64,000 bases of DNA from Schlesneria paludicola DSM 18645 (GTDB lineage: Bacteria; Planctomycetota; Planctomycetia; Planctomycetales; Planctomycetaceae), in NCBI GenBank assembly GCA_945876035.1, contig CAMCMU010000005.1, forward strand, positions 1 through 64,000, written 5' to 3'. The notes beneath the pieces are model-generated. The model was not told where the DNA came from and did no database searches. It saw only the letters and a list, made by a program, of their open reading frames with translations. Made by a program: the position numbers and the translations under genes. Shown piece by piece: positions 22,817 to 31,488 of this stretch. The number at the start of each line of letters is the position of its first letter. Within the stretch, counting starts at the first letter, position 1.

Positions 22817-23626
22817 GTGGAGAATTTATTGGCGGGGCAAGTCGCACTTGTGACCGGAGCGGGGCGCGGATTGGGCCGGGCTTTTGCCGAGCGATTGGCA
22901 AGGCTGGGTTGTCATATTGCGGTCCATGGCATGCGTGAAAACGGTCCCGCAGAATACGGTGAGGGAACAACTCTGACGGACACCGCACGACAAATCAGTA
23001 GTCAGTTTGGGGTACGTACAATCCGCGTCCTCGGCGATCTGACTGTCGGATCCGATGTTGAAAACGTTGTTCAATCGACGATCTCCGAGTTAGGACCCAT
23101 CGATATCTTGGTTCAAAATGCCGGTGGTGATATCGCGGCGGCGGGAGGGAAACCCAACCCCAATAGCGCCGTGGTGATGAAAGAGATCGATATCAAATCG
23201 GTTCTGGACAGGAATCTGCTCAGTACGATCCTGATCTGCCAACAGGTCGCTCGTGGCATGATGCAGAGACGACGAGGACGAATCATCACTATTAGTTCGA
23301 CGGCCGCCTTCAAAGGGAGCGAAAGCAGTGCGATTTACTCAACAGCCAAAGCCGCTGTGGTCGAGTACACGCGTTGCCTCGCCACAGAACTTCGAAGTTT
23401 CAATATCGCGGTCAACAGTATTGCGCCTGGCGACACGCGCACCGGACGATTTTTGGGAACGCGGCAGGTTGCCCAAGAACGCCTCCTGGAAGACGGAACG
23501 CTCGACAGAATTGGTCTTGTGGATGAAGTGGCTCGCGTTGTTGAATTTTTCGCAGGCCCCCTCGGTGACTTTGTTTCAGGGCAGGTGCTGCGGGTGGATG
23601 GTGGAAACCAATGTTGGTCCGCTTGA
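22817..23626 (+). CDS. SDR-family oxidoreductase (FabG-like)
   Basis: A 269-residue short-chain dehydrogenase. The cofactor motif VTGAGRGLGRAFAERLA, the NAGG motif (VQNAGGD), the catalytic Ser in TISSTAAF, the YSTAKAA Tyr/Lys pair, and the C-terminal VSGQVLRVDGGNQ are typical of 3-oxoacyl-ACP reductase-like SDRs. GTG 22817 follows a GGGAG ribosome site. There are no fatty-acid genes next to it, so FabG activity is not implied. A GC-rich hairpin at 23836-23861 separates it from the oxoprolinase gene. Confidence 0.9.
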   Translation: MENLLAGQVALVTGAGRGLGRAFAERLARLGCHIAVHGMRENGPAEYGEGTTLTDTARQISSQFGVRTIRVLGDLTVGSDVENVVQSTISELGPIDILVQNAGGDIAAAGGKPNPNSAVVMKEIDIKSVLDRNLLSTILICQQVARGMMQRRRGRIITISSTAAFKGSESSAIYSTAKAAVVEYTRCLATELRSFNIAVNSIAPGDTRTGRFLGTRQVAQERLLEDGTLDRIGLVDEVARVVEFFAGPLGDFVSGQVLRVDGGNQCWSA

Positions 23627-23861: not shown

Positions 23862-23919
23862 GAGTAACATGAGCCCGCTGATTTTGAGGACCATGTGTTT
23901 TTGTGTGAAATGAAATTTG

Positions 23920-26900
23920 ATGACACCTTTAGTCGAATTCTGGATCGATGTTGGCGGGACGTTTACCGACTGCCTGATGAAGTCCTCTGATGGAACTCTT
24001 TCGACGTACAAAGTCCTCTCATCCGGGATCACGAAAGGTCGTGCAACAGAGTTCGTCGGCGAACGGCAGTTTCGCGATCAGGCACGTGTGGGCGATTCTC
24101 CGGCCTTTTGGAGGGGATACTCGTTGACCCTGCTCGATGAGTCGGGAGCGTCTGTGCTAAGCTGCCGCGTCCTGGATTTTGATGCTCTCACCGGGACATT
24201 CACTCTGGATGCCGACTGCTCCACCTTGATGCCGAATTTACTTGGTGAGCCGACAGCCTTCCGCGATCATGCCCTCCCCATCGCAAAGCGTCCAGGATCG
24301 ATTGGCAACTATGAACTGAGCAGCGGTGAAGAGGCGCCCATTCTGGCGATCCGTACGGCGTTGGGACTGCGTTTGGAGGAAACGATCCCAACCGCGATTG
24401 TGCGTCTGGGAACAACTCGTGGAACGAACGCCTTGCTGACACGACGTGGTGCAAAAGTGGGATTCATCATCACCAAGGGATTTCGTGACGTATTGCTCAT
24501 CGCCAATCAGGATCGACCTCGATTGTTTGACCTCGCCATCCAGAAGCCCGAGCCGTTGTTTTCGGTAGTGACGGAGATCGACGAGCGACTGGATTCTTTA
24601 GGAGCGGTCCTCACAACACCGAGGGAGGCCGAGGTGCGTGATCAGATCCGTGCCTTGAAATTCGCCGGATGTGAATCGCTTGCCATTTGCCTGCTGCACG
24701 CATTTGCCAATCCCGTTCATGAACTCTTGGTTGAGCAGATTGCTCGGGACGAGGGCTTTACAGAGATCAGTACATCGAGCCGCTTGTCGCCTCTGATTAA
24801 GATTGTCTCGCGCGGCGACACCACGGTGATGGACGCGTATGTGAATCCGATCCTGCGTGATTACGTAGGAAAGTTGCTTGGGGCTTTGGGGACCGCGAAT
24901 TCCGGCAACGTTGCCGGAATAACTGCTCCACACACACTGAAATTGATGACCTCTTCGGGCGGCCTCGTCGATGCCGCTCGATTTACCGGCAAAGACAGCG
25001 TGCTCTCCGGACCTGCCGGAGGCGTCATCGGATTCTCACGCGTCGCTCAGCGGGCAGGTTTCGCAAAATCGATCGGCTTTGACATGGGTGGGACGAGCAC
25101 TGATGTCTCGCGTTTCGATGGACGATTTGAGCGAGAGTTTGAAACGATCAAGGCGGGCGTACGCGTTGTCGCTCCGATGCTGGCGATTGAGACCGTGGCC
25201 GCAGGAGGAGGCAGCGTCTGCGGTTTTGATGGCGTGAAACTGTTCGTCGGCCCCCAGAGTGCCGGCGCCAACCCCGGTCCCGCATGCTACGGCCGAGGGG
25301 GGCCGTTGACGATTACCGACGTGAATCTCTTCCTCGGCAAGATCATTCCAGAGCGGTTTCCGTTCCCGCTCGACCACTCCGCGGTGGAAACACGCCTTTT
25401 CGAATTGTGTGAACGCGTGATGGACTCACCGCTCGGACGTCGATACTCCGAACACGAATTAGCACAAGGATTCATCGATATTGCAAATACCACGATGGCC
25501 CGAGCAATTCGTAAAATCTCCGTCTCAAAGGGGTACGATCCTGCGGAATATGCGTTGGTCACCTTCGGCGGTGCTGGGGCTCAGCATGCCTGTGCACTCG
25601 TTCAATCCCTCGGCATGAAAACAGTCCTATCGCATCCCTATTCAGGCATTATGAGCGCTTATGGAATTGGACTTGCCGACGTTCGTCAGTTGAACGAACA
25701 GGGAGTGCTGCAGCCGTACTCGCCGGAGTTACTTTCCGCATTGGAATCGGACTTCGTCCGCATGGCCACTTCCGCAACTGAGGCGGTACTGGCCGAGGGG
25801 ATTTCCGCAGATCGTATCGACACGCCAATCCGGTCGCTCGACATCCGATATCAGGGCATCGAAGCCTCTCTCAATGTGATCCAGCCGAGTGATGGTAATT
25901 TCGCCGCAGCGTATGCCACACGACATCAGCAGCTTTATGGATATACAAGGCCTGACCGTGCATTGGAGGTCGTGGCAGCGAGAATTGAAGTGGTTGGCAG
26001 GCAGCCCGATCCCGTTGAGAATTCGGCAGCGGAAACGGCGCGTGTTCCTGAACCCCACTCATGGACGGAGACTTGGTTCCATGGATCCCCACATCCGACG
26101 GCCGTCTTTTTGCGAGAACAACTGCATCCCGGCGACACATTCAACGGCCCGGCGATCCTGTGCGAACCGACATCGACGGTTGTGATCGACCCCGGTTTTG
26201 AGGCAGTCATTCTCGGCCGAGGTGAAATCGTCATCACAATCCGGAGCGATGCGTCCAACGCGACAAGCGAGCGGGGATCACGTGAAATGCCAATCGATCG
26301 ACAACCTCTCTCCCTCGCGAAGGAACCTCCGGCAGCGGATCCCATCCGCATCGAAATCTTCAACCATTTGTTCGCCTCCATCGCCGAACAAATGGGGATC
26401 GCGTTGCAACAGACGAGCCTGTCGACGAACGTCAAGGAACGTCTGGATTTTTCCTGTGGCATCTTCTCGGCCCAAGGTGAACTGGTTGTGAATGCACCAC
26501 ACATTCCCGTCCATCTCGGCGCCATGAGTGAGACGGTTCGTCGCATCATTGAGGACAATCCAACACTGAAGTCTGGCGATGTCTTCGTTACGAATGACCC
26601 CTATCGCGGTGGATCTCACCTTCCTGACGTCACGGTCATCACACCTGTCCACGAGGAAACGACCGGGGAATTGATGTTCTTCACCGCCAGCCGTGCTCAT
26701 CACGCCGAGATTGGTGGCATCGTTCCAGGCTCGATGCCTCCGTTCTCAAAAACGCTCGCCGATGAGGGTGTACTGATCCGCAACTTTTTGCTGGTCGATG
26801 GCGGCAGATCGCGTGATTCCGAACTGCGAACGCTCCTTCAGTCCGGACCGTATCCCTCCCGGTCTGTCGGCGACAACCTCGCCGACGTGTCGGCTCAGGT

Positions 26901-28059
26901 GGCCGCTAACCGTACCGGCGCAAGCCAACTGCAGCGATTGGTGGAATCGCAGACGTGGCACGTTGTTCGCGCCTTCATGTGTCACATTCAAGCTTCGGCG
27001 GCGGCGAAGATGCGTTTGGCACTAGAGGAATTGAGTCGCGACTCATCCGCGTGGAGCCGGTCGCCCGAACCGGCTAACAACGTGCCTCGGACTGTCGCTG
27101 AAGTCGGCCCACCGGCCTGTCTGACAAACGCGGAGGCCGTCAATCATAACGTCTCGCAACATTCCCAGAGTCTCGCACAACAGAGCGCCGGACATCTGCC
27201 GATTGCGAATCGACAATTCACGTGTACCGATTGCCTCGATGATGGTTCGCCAATCTGTGTGACGATCACAATTTCCGCTGGTCATGCCACGGTCGATTTT
27301 ACCGGGACCGGCCCGGTGCTGGCGACAAATCTTAATGCCAATCGGGCGATCGTCACCGCAGCCGTGCTGTACGTCTTTCGATGCCTCATCAAGGACGAGA
27401 TACCACTCAATAGTGGTGTCTTGGACCCCGTGACCATCATTCTTCCCAGTTGCCTACTCAACCCCCCCTCGCACGATGATCCAAGACAATGTGCGGCAAT
27501 GGTCGGTGGCAACGTCGAAACATCGCAACGCGTCGTCGATGTCTTGCTCGGAGCTTTGGGTGTAGCGGCGGCGAGTCAGGGAACAATGAACAACCTAACT
27601 TTCGGCGACGAAACGTTCGGATACTACGAAACCATTTGCGGCGGAAGCGGCGCCACACGCGATGCGGACGGTGCCGATGCCGTGCATACACACATGACAA
27701 ATACGCGGCTGACCGATCCCGAAGTGATCGAACGCCGCTATCCTGTCCGGATTCATGAGTTTTCAATCCGACCCAACTCGGGTGGGATAGGCAATCATCG
27801 CGGTGGAGACGGCATTGTTCGCAAAATCGAATTCCTGAAGCCACTTCGAGTGTCGATTCTCTCCGAGCGTCGCGGTCAGTTCCCTCCCTTTGGTCTCCAG
27901 GGAGGCGGGGCGGGCCAACTGGGCCGCAACACACTGCGACGGGCTGGTGCGACGAATATCGATGCTCTTGCCGGAAAAGTGTCACTCGATGTTCAGGCCG
28001 GAGACGTGCTGACGATTGAGACACCGGGAGGTGGCGGATTTGGCTTGAGTGTGACATGA
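23920..28059 (+). CDS. Fused hydantoinase A/B, 5-oxoprolinase type
   Basis: A 1379-residue cytoplasmic enzyme that fuses both halves of the 5-oxoprolinase/hydantoinase family. HyuA half: nucleotide-binding DVGGTFTD at 10-17, RLGTTRGTNALLTRRG, MGGTSTDVSRFDG and TFGGAGAQHACALVQSLG. HyuB half from about 807: EQMGIALQQTSLSTNVKERL, DFSCGIFSAQGELV, VTNDPYRGGSHLPD, SRAHHAEIGG, and the terminal GGGGFG. Full-length fused homologues are about 1200-1300 residues; this one carries an extra polar stretch at about residues 1041-1095. The ATG at 23920 directly follows an in-frame TTG. The reaction is ATP-dependent opening of 5-oxoproline to glutamate. The downstream DUF1445 gene supports this over hydantoin use. 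Confidence 0.92.
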   Translation: MTPLVEFWIDVGGTFTDCLMKSSDGTLSTYKVLSSGITKGRATEFVGERQFRDQARVGDSPAFWRGYSLTLLDESGASVLSCRVLDFDALTGTFTLDADCSTLMPNLLGEPTAFRDHALPIAKRPGSIGNYELSSGEEAPILAIRTALGLRLEETIPTAIVRLGTTRGTNALLTRRGAKVGFIITKGFRDVLLIANQDRPRLFDLAIQKPEPLFSVVTEIDERLDSLGAVLTTPREAEVRDQIRALKFAGCESLAICLLHAFANPVHELLVEQIARDEGFTEISTSSRLSPLIKIVSRGDTTVMDAYVNPILRDYVGKLLGALGTANSGNVAGITAPHTLKLMTSSGGLVDAARFTGKDSVLSGPAGGVIGFSRVAQRAGFAKSIGFDMGGTSTDVSRFDGRFEREFETIKAGVRVVAPMLAIETVAAGGGSVCGFDGVKLFVGPQSAGANPGPACYGRGGPLTITDVNLFLGKIIPERFPFPLDHSAVETRLFELCERVMDSPLGRRYSEHELAQGFIDIANTTMARAIRKISVSKGYDPAEYALVTFGGAGAQHACALVQSLGMKTVLSHPYSGIMSAYGIGLADVRQLNEQGVLQPYSPELLSALESDFVRMATSATEAVLAEGISADRIDTPIRSLDIRYQGIEASLNVIQPSDGNFAAAYATRHQQLYGYTRPDRALEVVAARIEVVGRQPDPVENSAAETARVPEPHSWTETWFHGSPHPTAVFLREQLHPGDTFNGPAILCEPTSTVVIDPGFEAVILGRGEIVITIRSDASNATSERGSREMPIDRQPLSLAKEPPAADPIRIEIFNHLFASIAEQMGIALQQTSLSTNVKERLDFSCGIFSAQGELVVNAPHIPVHLGAMSETVRRIIEDNPTLKSGDVFVTNDPYRGGSHLPDVTVITPVHEETTGELMFFTASRAHHAEIGGIVPGSMPPFSKTLADEGVLIRNFLLVDGGRSRDSELRTLLQSGPYPSRSVGDNLADVSAQVAANRTGASQLQRLVESQTWHVVRAFMCHIQASAAAKMRLALEELSRDSSAWSRSPEPANNVPRTVAEVGPPACLTNAEAVNHNVSQHSQSLAQQSAGHLPIANRQFTCTDCLDDGSPICVTITISAGHATVDFTGTGPVLATNLNANRAIVTAAVLYVFRCLIKDEIPLNSGVLDPVTIILPSCLLNPPSHDDPRQCAAMVGGNVETSQRVVDVLLGALGVAAASQGTMNNLTFGDETFGYYETICGGSGATRDADGADAVHTHMTNTRLTDPEVIERRYPVRIHEFSIRPNSGGIGNHRGGDGIVRKIEFLKPLRVSILSERRGQFPPFGLQGGGAGQLGRNTLRRAGATNIDALAGKVSLDVQAGDVLTIETPGGGGFGLSVT

Positions 28060-28141
28060 CTCCCCGGCATTGAGCCGATACCATGGCACACCACTTGCGC
28101 CTCGTGAGTGGACACTTTTCCCTAAATAAAGGATCGTATTC

Positions 28142-28690
28142 GTGGCAGCCAATCGACGTGCTGATGTGGACAAGGCTCTGGCCGATGTAGATTTCTCGAA
28201 GCACAACTACCAAGTTGAATTCGATACGACCGAGGGAAAAATCCTGCTGGATGTCTACCCTGACGTGGCTCCGGGACACGCTCGCAATTTGATCGGACTG
28301 ACAAAAATTGGATTCTATAACGGGATCATTTTTCATCGAGTGATCTCGAACTTCATGATTCAAGTGGGATGCCCCCAAGGAACGGGAACGGGCGGCCCCG
28401 GCTACACCATTAAGGCGGAATTCAACGAGACGCCGCACGATGCAGGAATTCTTTCGATGGCACGAACCAACGACCCCAACTCGGCTGGCTCGCAATTCTT
28501 CATCTGCCTCAGCCGTGAGGGAACACGCAGCCTCGATAATCAGTACACCGTCTTCGGAAAGACCGCCGATCAGGCGAGTCTCGATATTGTAAAGGCCATC
28601 GGAGCGGTCAAAACCAATCATTCCGACAGACCACTGAAAGAGATCAAGATCAACTCCGCACGAGTCATTGCAACAACAAAGCCACTGTGA
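28142..28690 (+). CDS. Cyclophilin-type peptidylprolyl isomerase
   Basis: A 182-residue cyclophilin that isomerises Xaa-Pro bonds. The family signature is intact: NLIGLTKIGFYNGIIFHRVI, then FMIQVGCPQGTGTGGPGY (the catalytic loop after FHRV), SMARTNDPNSAGSQFFICLS and YTVFGKTADQASLDIV. No signal peptide, so it is cytoplasmic. GTG 28142 has AAAGGA about 9 bases upstream. It lies 82 bp after the oxoprolinase gene and 144 bp before the DUF1445 gene, all in one direction, and could share their transcript. Confidence 0.94.
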   Translation: MAANRRADVDKALADVDFSKHNYQVEFDTTEGKILLDVYPDVAPGHARNLIGLTKIGFYNGIIFHRVISNFMIQVGCPQGTGTGGPGYTIKAEFNETPHDAGILSMARTNDPNSAGSQFFICLSREGTRSLDNQYTVFGKTADQASLDIVKAIGAVKTNHSDRPLKEIKINSARVIATTKPL

Positions 28691-28834
28691 TTGCGATCAC
28701 GAAACTCGCATGACAGAGACAACGGTCAGCGACTCATCGCAGTGGCCGAAGAGAGGGAGTGACGTCCAACGACAGTCCCTCTCTTCACGTTTTGTGTGGG
28801 ACGTCGGTTCAATTCCCGAGAATGGAATTCCACA

Positions 28835-29626
28835 ATGGCGGACAAAATACAGTTGAGCACCGGGCTGGATGTTCGGCGGGCATGTCGTCGGGGTCAATGG
28901 ACTGGCCCCACGGCAGGGCTGGCCGCGAATTATGTTCAGGCCAATCTCGTCACATTGCCTCGAGAGTTCGCGTTCGATTTTCTGTTGTTTTGTCAAAGGA
29001 ATCCCCGGTCTTGTCCGTTGATTTCCGTCACGGAGGCCGGTAGCTGGCAGCCCTCGGAGGTGGCGACTGACGTCGATTTGCGGAGCGACCTGCCAAGATA
29101 CCGTGTGTGGCAGGACGGAAACCTTGTCGATGAGCCGACAGCGGTGACGGATCTCTGGCGAGATGATCTTGTCAGTTTTCTGATCGGCTGCTCATTCACT
29201 TTCGAAGCGTCGTTGATCCGGAATGGGATTCCTGTGCGTCATATCGAACGTGGCTGCAACGTGCCGATGTTTCAGACGAACATTCCCTGCCGGCCAGCGG
29301 GGCGATTTGCGGGACCGCTTGTGGTTTCCATGCGGCCACTCAAGCCCTCCGATGTCCTTCAATCCTTCGAAATTTCATCGCGGTTTTCTGGATCGCATGG
29401 ATCTCCGATCCACGTCGGATATCCTGAACAGATTGGCATCGTAGACATCAACCGTCCCGACTATGGAGACGCCGTTGCTGTTGAAGAGGGTGAACTTCCC
29501 GTCTTTTGGGCCTGCGGTGTGACCCCTCAGGCTGCTCTTCAGAAGTCCCAAATCCCGTTTGCGATCACGCACGCACCTGGCTGTATGTTTGTGACGGATG
29601 TTATCGATCCCCAGTCATCTCGTTGA
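28835..29626 (+). CDS. DUF1445 / D-glutamate cyclase-like protein
   Basis: A 263-residue protein of the DUF1445 (YcsI, putative hydro-lyase) family. Recognised phrases are GLAANYVQANLVTLP, the central DDLVSFLIGCSFTFEASL, GCNVPMFQTNIPC, GPLVVSMRPL, and the late FWACGVTPQAAL and ITHAPGCMFVTD. The mitochondrial relative DGLUCY carries this domain and converts D-glutamate to 5-oxo-D-proline. The adjacent 5-oxoprolinase gene makes the same reaction plausible here. ATG 28835 leaves the conserved region near the N-terminus; the frame opens 13 codons earlier. Confidence 0.9.
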   Translation: MADKIQLSTGLDVRRACRRGQWTGPTAGLAANYVQANLVTLPREFAFDFLLFCQRNPRSCPLISVTEAGSWQPSEVATDVDLRSDLPRYRVWQDGNLVDEPTAVTDLWRDDLVSFLIGCSFTFEASLIRNGIPVRHIERGCNVPMFQTNIPCRPAGRFAGPLVVSMRPLKPSDVLQSFEISSRFSGSHGSPIHVGYPEQIGIVDINRPDYGDAVAVEEGELPVFWACGVTPQAALQKSQIPFAITHAPGCMFVTDVIDPQSSR

Positions 29627-29749: not shown

Positions 29750-30427
29750 ATGTCCGATCCGTTGCGATTCGAACGAGCCACGGACCATTTGCAGGCCGCG
29801 TATGGTCGGCCCTGTCTTCCGACCGCGGATTCGACTTGGGCACTTGCGTTGCAAGTCCTGTTCGGCATTTCGACCGGCCATCACCTGAGCCCTGTTCTGA
29901 ACGAGATACTGCGGTCGCCGCCACTCGTCTCGCCGACGCAGACCGTATCTTCGACGACCGGACACTTAGTTGAGGTTCTGAATCCCATTCCTCGCGGCCC
30001 TCAAAAGAGCTCCGTCGTTCGAGCCATGGCGGCATGGTGGATCGAACAATTCGGCGACGAAATTTCTCCCCAATGGTCGAAGGGCCTAGACTTTTATCGC
30101 GTATCGCTACGAACCCTCCGCGGACTCGGCCCGTCCACCGTCGATGAACTTTTGTTGTTCGCGGCTCGATTAAACGTTTTTCCTCTGGATCGATCGGCAC
30201 TGCGCGTCGCCGTTCGCCATGGATGGCTCGCTCTGCCCCTCGAAGAGGAAGAGGCACAGTTATTTTTCATCGACGGCCTCAAACAGGCCAAGATTGATCC
30301 GCGTGAGTTCTCATCGTTACTCTCCAAAGTCGGCGAGAACCACTGTGGACGCGAACCGATCTGTGATGGTTGTGCGCTCCAAGCACTGCTTCCGACCGGC
30401 GGGCCGCTGTCTCCAGAAAGCTGCTGA
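29750..30427 (+). CDS. Endonuclease III-like HhH-GPD DNA glycosylase homologue
   Basis: A 225-residue protein of the HhH-GPD superfamily. The helix-hairpin-helix is LRGLGPSTVDELLLFAARL and the conserved aspartate lies in FPLDRSALRVAVRHGW. The position equivalent to the catalytic lysine of endonuclease III (GRKTAN) reads GPSTVD, so the lyase lysine is absent. The C-terminus has a cluster-like CGREPICDGC plus a last Cys, resembling but not matching the C-x6-C-x2-C-x5-C iron-sulfur loop. It may be a monofunctional or divergent repair protein. ATG 29750 follows a plausible weak ribosome site. Confidence 0.82.
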   Translation: MSDPLRFERATDHLQAAYGRPCLPTADSTWALALQVLFGISTGHHLSPVLNEILRSPPLVSPTQTVSSTTGHLVEVLNPIPRGPQKSSVVRAMAAWWIEQFGDEISPQWSKGLDFYRVSLRTLRGLGPSTVDELLLFAARLNVFPLDRSALRVAVRHGWLALPLEEEEAQLFFIDGLKQAKIDPREFSSLLSKVGENHCGREPICDGCALQALLPTGGPLSPESC

Positions 30428-30573
30428 CGGCTTCATAATCGATACAACCGATACCCTCGCAGATCATCCTTCAAGTTTTGCCAATTGACAATGTCTTCTC
30501 TATCGGAACAGGTTCCGAAATTCCGATTCCAATCGGGACAATCTGTATCGATCAGGAAAGAGAGGGTGTCGGC

Positions 30574-31488
30574 GTGGACTTTGAACTGCTGGTCATTGGC
30601 GATGAACGCGAGGCCATTGAGAACGCTCTGGCTGCCGGTCGTCGTGGTCAATACACGGCTCTGGTGCAACCGACGAACTTCGAGAGGGGTGCGATAGCGA
30701 TCGACGTACTGCGCGAAGCATCCACGAACATTGGAAATCCGTCACGGGCTCGTCTGCGTGAATTGCGAAACGAGGTGAATCGAATTTTGCATTCTCAACG
30801 GACAGCCGATCGGGTGGAACTCGATCGCCTCGGTGTCAATATTTTTTCAGGCGACGTCCGGTTTCTCGATCAGCAGGCCGTCGGTGTTTGTTGCAGGGGG
30901 GAAGCCTCGACATCGATTGTGTTGAGCGGCCAGAAAATCTTGCTTGCCTGTGGCACCCGTTCTCTCCGCCCGCATCACTTCCGCTTTGATGATCGCCTTG
31001 TGCTCGATGTCGAATCATTGCTAGATCTAGACGAATTGCCAAGATCGCTGCTGGTGGTCGGAGCGGGGGAAAGCGGGCTCGATCACGCGTTGTTTCTCGC
31101 GTCGATGGGCGTCGATGTTACGGTCATCGATGCCCGTGCAAGTCTCCTCGACGTTTACGGAGGGTTGACTGACACCGCACGGTTATTCGAGGCACAGTCG
31201 CTCGACATCGCATTTCGACTCGGTGACGAGGTGATCGGTGTGGCGACACGGCAGAATGAACGCGTCGCGGTGCAATTGGCAAGTGGAACAGTATTCGTTG
31301 CCGATGCGTGTCTCGTCTGTGTTGGTCGTGTCGGCAACACCGATACGTTGAACTTGGAAGCCACCGGGGTGGGTCTCGACGAACGCGGCTTAGTGTGGTG
31401 TGATGCCGACGGTGGAACGTGGGTTTCCAACATTCGTGCGGCGGGCCCTGTGGTTGGATTTCGCTCCAACAAGGAACTTGCTGGCTAA
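30574..31488 (+). CDS. Shortened FAD/NAD-dependent disulfide-reductase-like protein
   Basis: The 304-residue product resembles soluble transhydrogenase/dihydrolipoamide dehydrogenase-type flavoproteins. The central NAD-binding motif is good (LLVVGAGESGLDHALFLASMG), as is ACLVCVGRVGNTDTLNLEATG, and the end has NIRAAGPVVGF, equivalent to the IYAAGDVVGF motif. The N-terminal FAD motif is degraded: VIGDEREAIENALAAGRRG lacks the GxGxxG glycines. The protein stops right after the second FAD segment, so the dimerisation domain (about 150 residues) is absent. GTG 30574 with an AGAGGG site is chosen; a TTG at 30478 is also possible. It may be a degenerate or repurposed enzyme. Confidence 0.72.
   Translation: MDFELLVIGDEREAIENALAAGRRGQYTALVQPTNFERGAIAIDVLREASTNIGNPSRARLRELRNEVNRILHSQRTADRVELDRLGVNIFSGDVRFLDQQAVGVCCRGEASTSIVLSGQKILLACGTRSLRPHHFRFDDRLVLDVESLLDLDELPRSLLVVGAGESGLDHALFLASMGVDVTVIDARASLLDVYGGLTDTARLFEAQSLDIAFRLGDEVIGVATRQNERVAVQLASGTVFVADACLVCVGRVGNTDTLNLEATGVGLDERGLVWCDADGGTWVSNIRAAGPVVGFRSNKELAG

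Follow-up and report, generated by a model that had tools for sequence, protein, structure and literature searches.

What links a 5-oxoprolinase to a protein of the DUF1445 family? The question is raised by a 64,000-nucleotide stretch of Schlesneria paludicola DSM 18645 (positions 1 to 64,000 of contig CAMCMU010000005.1, assembly GCA_945876035.1; hereafter the window), in which a fused 5-oxoprolinase of the OPLAH type is followed by a cyclophilin and then by a DUF1445/PF07286 protein, all on the + strand with intergenic gaps of 82 and 144 bases:

23920..28059, + strand: fused ATP-dependent 5-oxoprolinase (OPLAH type), from Pfam/NCBIfam domains, motifs and alignment
28142..28690, + strand: cyclophilin-type peptidyl-prolyl isomerase, 182 amino acids (PF00160, E 2e-41)
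28835..29626, + strand: DUF1445/PF07286 'D-glutamate cyclase' family protein, 263 amino acids (PF07286, NF003969)

A sequence-only reading had recognised these three genes, and the Pfam and NCBIfam matches agree with it, the examined residues being intact. As a 5-oxoproline module the locus is well supported. We further propose, in a judgement evenly balanced between acceptance and doubt, that DUF1445 and a DUF4392 protein encoded elsewhere in the genome form a split D-glutamate cyclase that would feed the oxoprolinase. Support at the level of the pathway comes from the gene identities, the conserved residues, gene fusions, the repeated association of DUF1445 with two oxoprolinase types of unrelated sequence, and the finding that DUF4392 is nested within DUF1445-containing genomes in two phyla sampled.

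The oxoprolinase and its DUF1445 neighbour

The oxoprolinase open reading frame (ORF; 23917-28059) opens at a TTG, and an in-frame ATG at 23920 gives a protein of 1379 amino acids. Four Pfam domains follow in order across 1380 amino acids, Hydant_A_N, Hydantoinase_A, Hydant_A_C and Hydantoinase_B (PF02538, E 3e-185), uniting the hydantoinase A and B regions in one chain, a feature of OPLAH-type membership. This is the single PF02538 match in the window genome (4.71 Mb, 102 contigs, 96.85% complete). The ATP-site motifs D10-x-GGTFTD, D388-x-GGTS and GANPGP (449) are present, the phosphate- and adenosine-site patterns DxGGTxTD, DxGGT and GxxPGP being taken from PMC8453981 (sources given by PMC number are cited here from the accessible part of each text). 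The B region keeps the Asp-His-Asp-His metal tetrad on which caprolactamase depends (PMC8453981), as D843, H900, D903 and H927 by alignment to CapB D41/H99/D102/H124 (6yra_B). The domains, the ATP motifs and this tetrad are thus common to the window protein and to the eukaryotic-type 5-oxoprolinase and caprolactamase/hydantoinase family described there. Curated NCBI equivalog cut-offs were missed for the caprolactamase subunits CapA (311/1000 bits) and CapB (145/1000) and for the acetophenone carboxylase subunits ApcC (177/1500), ApcA (129/1250) and ApcD (50/1500). The nearest solved relative by sequence is an N-methylhydantoinase, and homology leaves the substrate unsettled; from family membership, we infer that the enzyme would act on 5-oxoproline. 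PxpABC was ruled out as the oxoprolinase of the window genome, as PxpA (PF03746) has 0 matches across that 96.85% complete assembly. Lys40, a marker found in carboxylases, hydantoinases and lactamases and not in oxoprolinases according to the accessible text of PMC8453981, was left unused, the residue lying outside our alignments.

In the ATP-binding part of the window enzyme, the GTTxxTN motif begins 152 residues after the start of GGTFTD (23953-24435). Across the 30 other open frames in which this distance was measured, it is 124-131 in same-family relatives, 80 in the planctomycete G071, and 59 in 12/30 (four fused and eight proteobacterial forms). Judged by this sequence comparison, the long spacer is a family-specific insert.

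The DUF1445 frame (28796-29626) opens at GTG 28796, and its likely start is ATG 28835. Its match to PF07286 is strong (E 4e-66, 221.6 bits vs a cut-off of 25 bits), it passes the curated NCBIfam cut-off for NF003969 (409.7 vs 324 bits), and it is the one PF07286 copy found in the window genome. The best-matching DUF1445 locus belongs to a Planctomycetaceae metagenome-assembled genome (69% identity), and the solved relatives by sequence, 3db9 and 2pif, were deposited as UPF0317 proteins. In an alignment of 110 rows, made up of the window protein and 109 others taken from loci, the window protein carries the consensus residue wherever a column is conserved in 98% or more of the rows; the conserved columns include R14, N56, C60, D85, Y89, R167, H188, W225, C227 and H246. 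An AlphaFold model has a mean predicted local distance difference test score (pLDDT) of 93.7. Beyond its own family, DUF1445 is closest in fold to the nitrogen-repressor-like MJ0159 (3nek_A; Z 9.9, root-mean-square deviation 4.0, 165 aligned, 16% identity), and the next match falls to Z 4.4; only two family structures and MJ0159 were prominent in the fold search, and no racemase- or cyclase-like relative stood out among the families that the search covered. Five divergent DUF1445 proteins elsewhere in the phylum, L085, L086, L087, L088 and L089 (G061 twice, G130, G079 and G232), lack most of the VRH...NVPM stretch; their genomes are without DUF4392, and these proteins possibly have another function.

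Linkage of DUF1445 to two kinds of oxoprolinase

We surveyed 294 genomes of the phylum, of which 28 have PF07286 and 179 have PF02538. In 9/28, DUF1445 lies in the same open frame as the oxoprolinase, just after Hydantoinase_B (G006, G018, G044, G065, G118, G149, G164, G178 and G191). These fusions are spread over four GTDB families (f9, f21, f41 and f54); four of the frames are long enough for both whole enzymes, and five reach contig ends. The row of oxoprolinase, cyclophilin and DUF1445 occurs in 6/28, namely the window genome and five members of a single further genus; these five are also the 5/11 other PF07286 genomes of the window's own GTDB family that repeat this order. Two further loci from named Planctomycetaceae, L105 and L116, have the same three-gene order. 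Co-occurrence of DUF1445 with PF02538 across the 294 genomes gives a Fisher value of 1e-4, a figure that ignores kinship and overstates the strength. The proximity of DUF1445 to the oxoprolinase exceeds chance. Conservation of the neighbourhood, which the sequence-only reading had expected, thus stands in part: fused or adjacent genes on the one hand (9/28 and 6/28), but on the other hand 11/28 genomes with both genes and no linkage detected, several of them draft assemblies, and 2/28 without PF02538.

The linkage extends beyond the phylum. Scanning with the DUF1445 alignment yielded 590 confirmed candidates; the best 80, which are named loci and form a sample tilted to close relatives, were examined over neighbourhoods of at most 9 kb, often shorter at contig ends. 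Genes of PxpABC stand near DUF1445 at 28/80 loci (PxpB and PxpC at 28, PxpA at 25) and OPLAH/hydantoinase-type genes at 15/80, never together with PxpABC; the two groups represent 20 and 12 organism labels, and some of the 15 are split A/B genes or lie up to about 8 kb away. TRAP transporter genes are near at 16/80 and DUF4392 at 10/80. For each of the two oxoprolinase linkages, a crude chance model that puts from one to four copies of a gene in 4.5 Mb, and ignores kinship, gives P < 1e-11. A quickly built tree of 110 DUF1445 domains requires, on the strength of its starred branches, a minimum of three label changes for Pxp linkage, three for a separate OPLAH-type gene and two for fusion, the second fused origin being unsure since it rests on a long branch.

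PxpABC and OPLAH catalyse the same reaction and have sequences without similarity (PMC13274462, PMC8453981). Because the two are unrelated yet perform the same reaction, DUF1445 most likely acts on 5-oxoproline or glutamate. The earlier idea that DUF1445 and 5-oxoprolinase belong together is borne out by this double association and by the direct fusions.

At locus L137, a TRAP receptor ORF beside DUF1445, the one compared out of 12 such listed ORFs, has as its best solved matches 2pfz and 2pfy (E 1e-20), which we take to be Bordetella receptors crystallised with pyroglutamate. Pyroglutamate receptors are described in PMC5812351 and PMC13274462. At another locus, L152 (9013-13200), from a Clostridia metagenome-assembled genome, DUF1445, DUF4392, PxpA, PxpB and PxpC are consecutive on one strand. 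It is the only locus of the best 80 with DUF4392 plus Pxp, and it makes a good candidate for biochemistry.

Closer to the window, the cyclophilin adjoins the oxoprolinase and/or DUF1445 in 10/16 same-family genomes examined (the window genome, G048, G069, G181, G227, G238, G216, G257, G266 and G291; a 17th, G283, was left out). It stands beside the oxoprolinase with DUF1445 not adjacent in three of these (G257, G266 and G291), and beside DUF1445 with no oxoprolinase nearby in one (G216); in one genus it lies only 5 bases 5' of DUF1445. A consensus scan found no terminator-like site in either gap between the three window genes, and a single transcript covering all three is possible. The short-chain dehydrogenase upstream (22817-23626) was dropped as a member of the unit; its homologue is not near the three genes in five syntenic genomes (L062-L066). 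Downstream of DUF1445, an ORF of 225 amino acids (29750-30427) has no Pfam or NCBIfam matches, and its end looks by eye like the four-cysteine cluster of endonuclease III type. The next ORF (30478-31488), a pyridine nucleotide-disulphide oxidoreductase of 336 amino acids, covers only positions 73-317 of a 464-position transhydrogenase model; it may be truncated or frame-shifted, since its homologues near the oxoprolinase in three relatives have 504-531 amino acids.

DUF4392, the proposed route and its rivals

Mouse DGLUCY combines DUF1445 with DUF4392, and the whole protein converts D-glutamate to 5-oxo-D-proline (PMC5339696, whose accessible text neither says which of the two domains acts nor names active-site residues); the DUF1445-DUF4392 fusion in higher animals was also noted in a structural paper (PMC5132392). 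Both domains of this vertebrate protein (mouse 9030617O03Rik, human C14orf159) are encoded in the window genome. In vertebrates they form one protein, whereas in the window genome they are two genes on two contigs, and relatives fuse DUF1445 to the oxoprolinase instead. The DUF4392 protein comes from contig C21, where its two matched halves lie in a single frame. Seven acidic columns are invariant across 33 proteins, of which it is one, and it retains them all; TON_0340 of Thermococcus, which is DUF4392 alone, has six acidic metal ligands (PMC5132392), the comparison being one of counts only. The D-glutamate role that the sequence-only reading took from DUF1445 is strengthened because DUF4392, which completes mammalian DGLUCY, is also encoded in the window genome, although the activity is known for the two-domain mouse protein and not for DUF1445 alone.

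In the two phylum sets, DUF4392 is nested within the genomes that have DUF1445. It occurs in 23/294 phylum genomes, and all 23 have DUF1445 and PF02538 (Fisher 1e-29 for DUF1445-DUF4392 and 7e-6 for DUF4392-PF02538, with kinship ignored and the strength overstated). A second set comprised 244 genomes from the phylum of the cyanobacterium L122. There DUF4392 is found in 2, both with DUF1445 beside it, DUF1445 in 5, and PF02538 in 103, including all 5 with DUF1445 (Fisher 3e-4 for DUF4392-DUF1445 and 0.013 for DUF1445-PF02538).

We propose the following route. By analogy with DGLUCY, we infer that the DUF1445-DUF4392 pair would cyclise D-glutamate, removing water to give 5-oxoproline. This step should need no ATP, because the equilibrium favours the ring form (Keq glutamate/5-oxoproline ~0.035; PMC13274462). 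The OPLAH-type enzyme would then spend ATP to open 5-oxoproline to glutamate. The D-glutamate could come, as a matter of speculation, from the organism's own or foreign peptidoglycan or from D-peptides; no tie between the unit and peptidoglycan emerged from the analysis, which included no direct test of one. Cyclisation and reopening return D-glutamate, and the cycle would therefore be futile unless some step inverts the configuration; this could fall to DUF1445, to an oxoprolinase that tolerates both forms, or to a racemase acting later. Neither an inverting step nor a non-stereospecific oxoprolinase was found in our analysis. The salvage of D-glutamate by this pair, as put forward in the sequence-only reading, is accordingly not supported in that form, because cyclisation plus hydrolysis does not yield L-glutamate.

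Several further observations weigh against the split cyclase. 5-Oxoprolinases are regarded as L-specific. Inversion by DGLUCY is not visible, because the mouse enzyme yields 5-oxo-D-proline, with no L-glutamate formed and no racemase activity, and humans excrete the same compound (PMC5339696). The archaeal TON_0340, with DUF4392 alone, was described as a weak Mn2+-dependent phosphatase (PMC5132392). The window genome's own DUF4392 gene lies near the end of a contig separate from that of DUF1445 (C5). DUF1445 occurs without DUF4392 in 5/28 phylum genomes, four of which have divergent DUF1445, in 3/5 of the cyanobacterial-phylum set, and in 8 of 15 hand-chosen named DUF1445 genomes; DUF4392 is present in the other 7, five of the 15 having already been known to carry it near DUF1445. 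At 20/80 loci none of the sought partner families is near DUF1445. PxpA, moreover, is not associated with DUF1445 in the phylum (2/28 vs 20/266); the DUF1445-Pxp link stems from other phyla.

The stereochemical gap would be closed if DUF1445 were instead a cofactor-free 5-oxoproline racemase supplying an L-specific oxoprolinase, with DUF4392 as the D-glutamate cyclase, an alternative that we consider unlikely. We know of no racemase activity in any DUF1445 protein. The 5-oxo-D-proline would be made by DUF4392, formed spontaneously or imported. A racemase role would explain why DUF1445 stands beside both oxoprolinase types and TRAP genes without a nearby DUF4392, and why DUF4392 is seen only in DUF1445 genomes within the two phylum sets. 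The near-invariant C60 (109/110), C227 (110/110) and the invariant H188 and H246 could be acid-base pairs. However, mammals with the fused protein excrete 5-oxo-D-proline (PMC5339696), which makes the vertebrate domain no efficient racemiser, and DUF4392 is described as a weak phosphatase (PMC5132392). The complete scheme, with ring closure of D-glutamate by DUF4392, inversion of the lactam by DUF1445 and ATP-driven ring opening by OPLAH or PxpABC, strikes us as quite unlikely. If true, the racemase would be the step that drains D-glutamate into L-glutamate in bacteria, perhaps also in vertebrates, and the fused oxoprolinase-DUF1445 polypeptide of several planctomycete families could hand the lactam on directly.

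It is also conceivable, if improbable, that the locus serves general 5-oxoproline scavenging or repair, the oxoprolinase clearing 5-oxo-L-proline derived from glutamine and glutamate and DUF1445 serving it in sensing, assembly or regulation without any part in D-amino-acid metabolism. The B. subtilis ycsI operon is under nitrogen control, among others (PMC10448178). The closest fold beyond the family is that of the nitrogen-repressor-like MJ0159; in that group, NrpR senses 2-oxoglutarate. A common fold with MJ0159 proves no function, however, and the conserved polar residues of DUF1445 suggest a catalytic pocket; vertebrate DGLUCY, which contains the domain, is an enzyme to which DUF1445 is tied by the nesting of DUF4392. 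That there is no functional unit at all, only chance or house-keeping neighbours kept by descent in one family, is very improbable. The 11/28 phylum genomes with both genes unlinked speak for it, as does an intervening cyclophilin without obvious relevance. This reading is nevertheless largely refuted because DUF1445-oxoprolinase fusions exist, in four GTDB families, and it sits poorly with linkage to two unrelated oxoprolinase types and with several forced label changes on the quick DUF1445 tree.

Known systems and what the locus adds

A DUF1445 protein also accompanies an ATP-dependent 5-oxoprolinase in B. subtilis, as it does in the window. Our B. subtilis control genome has DUF1445, in a PF07286 match that is presumably YcsI, and no match to DUF4392. 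Here ycsI lies downstream of ycsG in the pxpA/pxpB/pxpC operon, and the accessible text of the paper describing it assigns YcsI no function (PMC10448178). The B. subtilis oxoprolinase is PxpABC, unrelated in sequence to the OPLAH type of the window. PMC11580864 tabulates gut-bacterial homologues of two human proteins: for D-glutamate cyclase 6 are split and 0 full-length, and for OPLAH 54 are split and 7 full-length. Archaea have no DUF1445 homologues according to the accessible text of PMC5132392. The Bacillus 5-oxoprolinase operon and the gut-bacterial tally of split cyclases are thus already in print. In the literature searched, outside which most subscription papers fall, we found neither fusions of an oxoprolinase with DUF1445 nor the nesting of DUF4392 among genomes with DUF1445 described. 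Nor did we find there an assay of a bacterial split D-glutamate cyclase, or a tested function for a bacterial DUF1445 protein on its own, though solved structures exist for this widespread family.

With the fusions, and with DUF4392 nested in DUF1445 genomes, a vague DUF1445 annotation becomes a concrete proposal for a three-protein pathway, in which a split cyclase would supply 5-oxoproline to the oxoprolinase. The stereochemical step in the disposal of D-glutamate that this pathway brings into focus also bears on mammalian DGLUCY.

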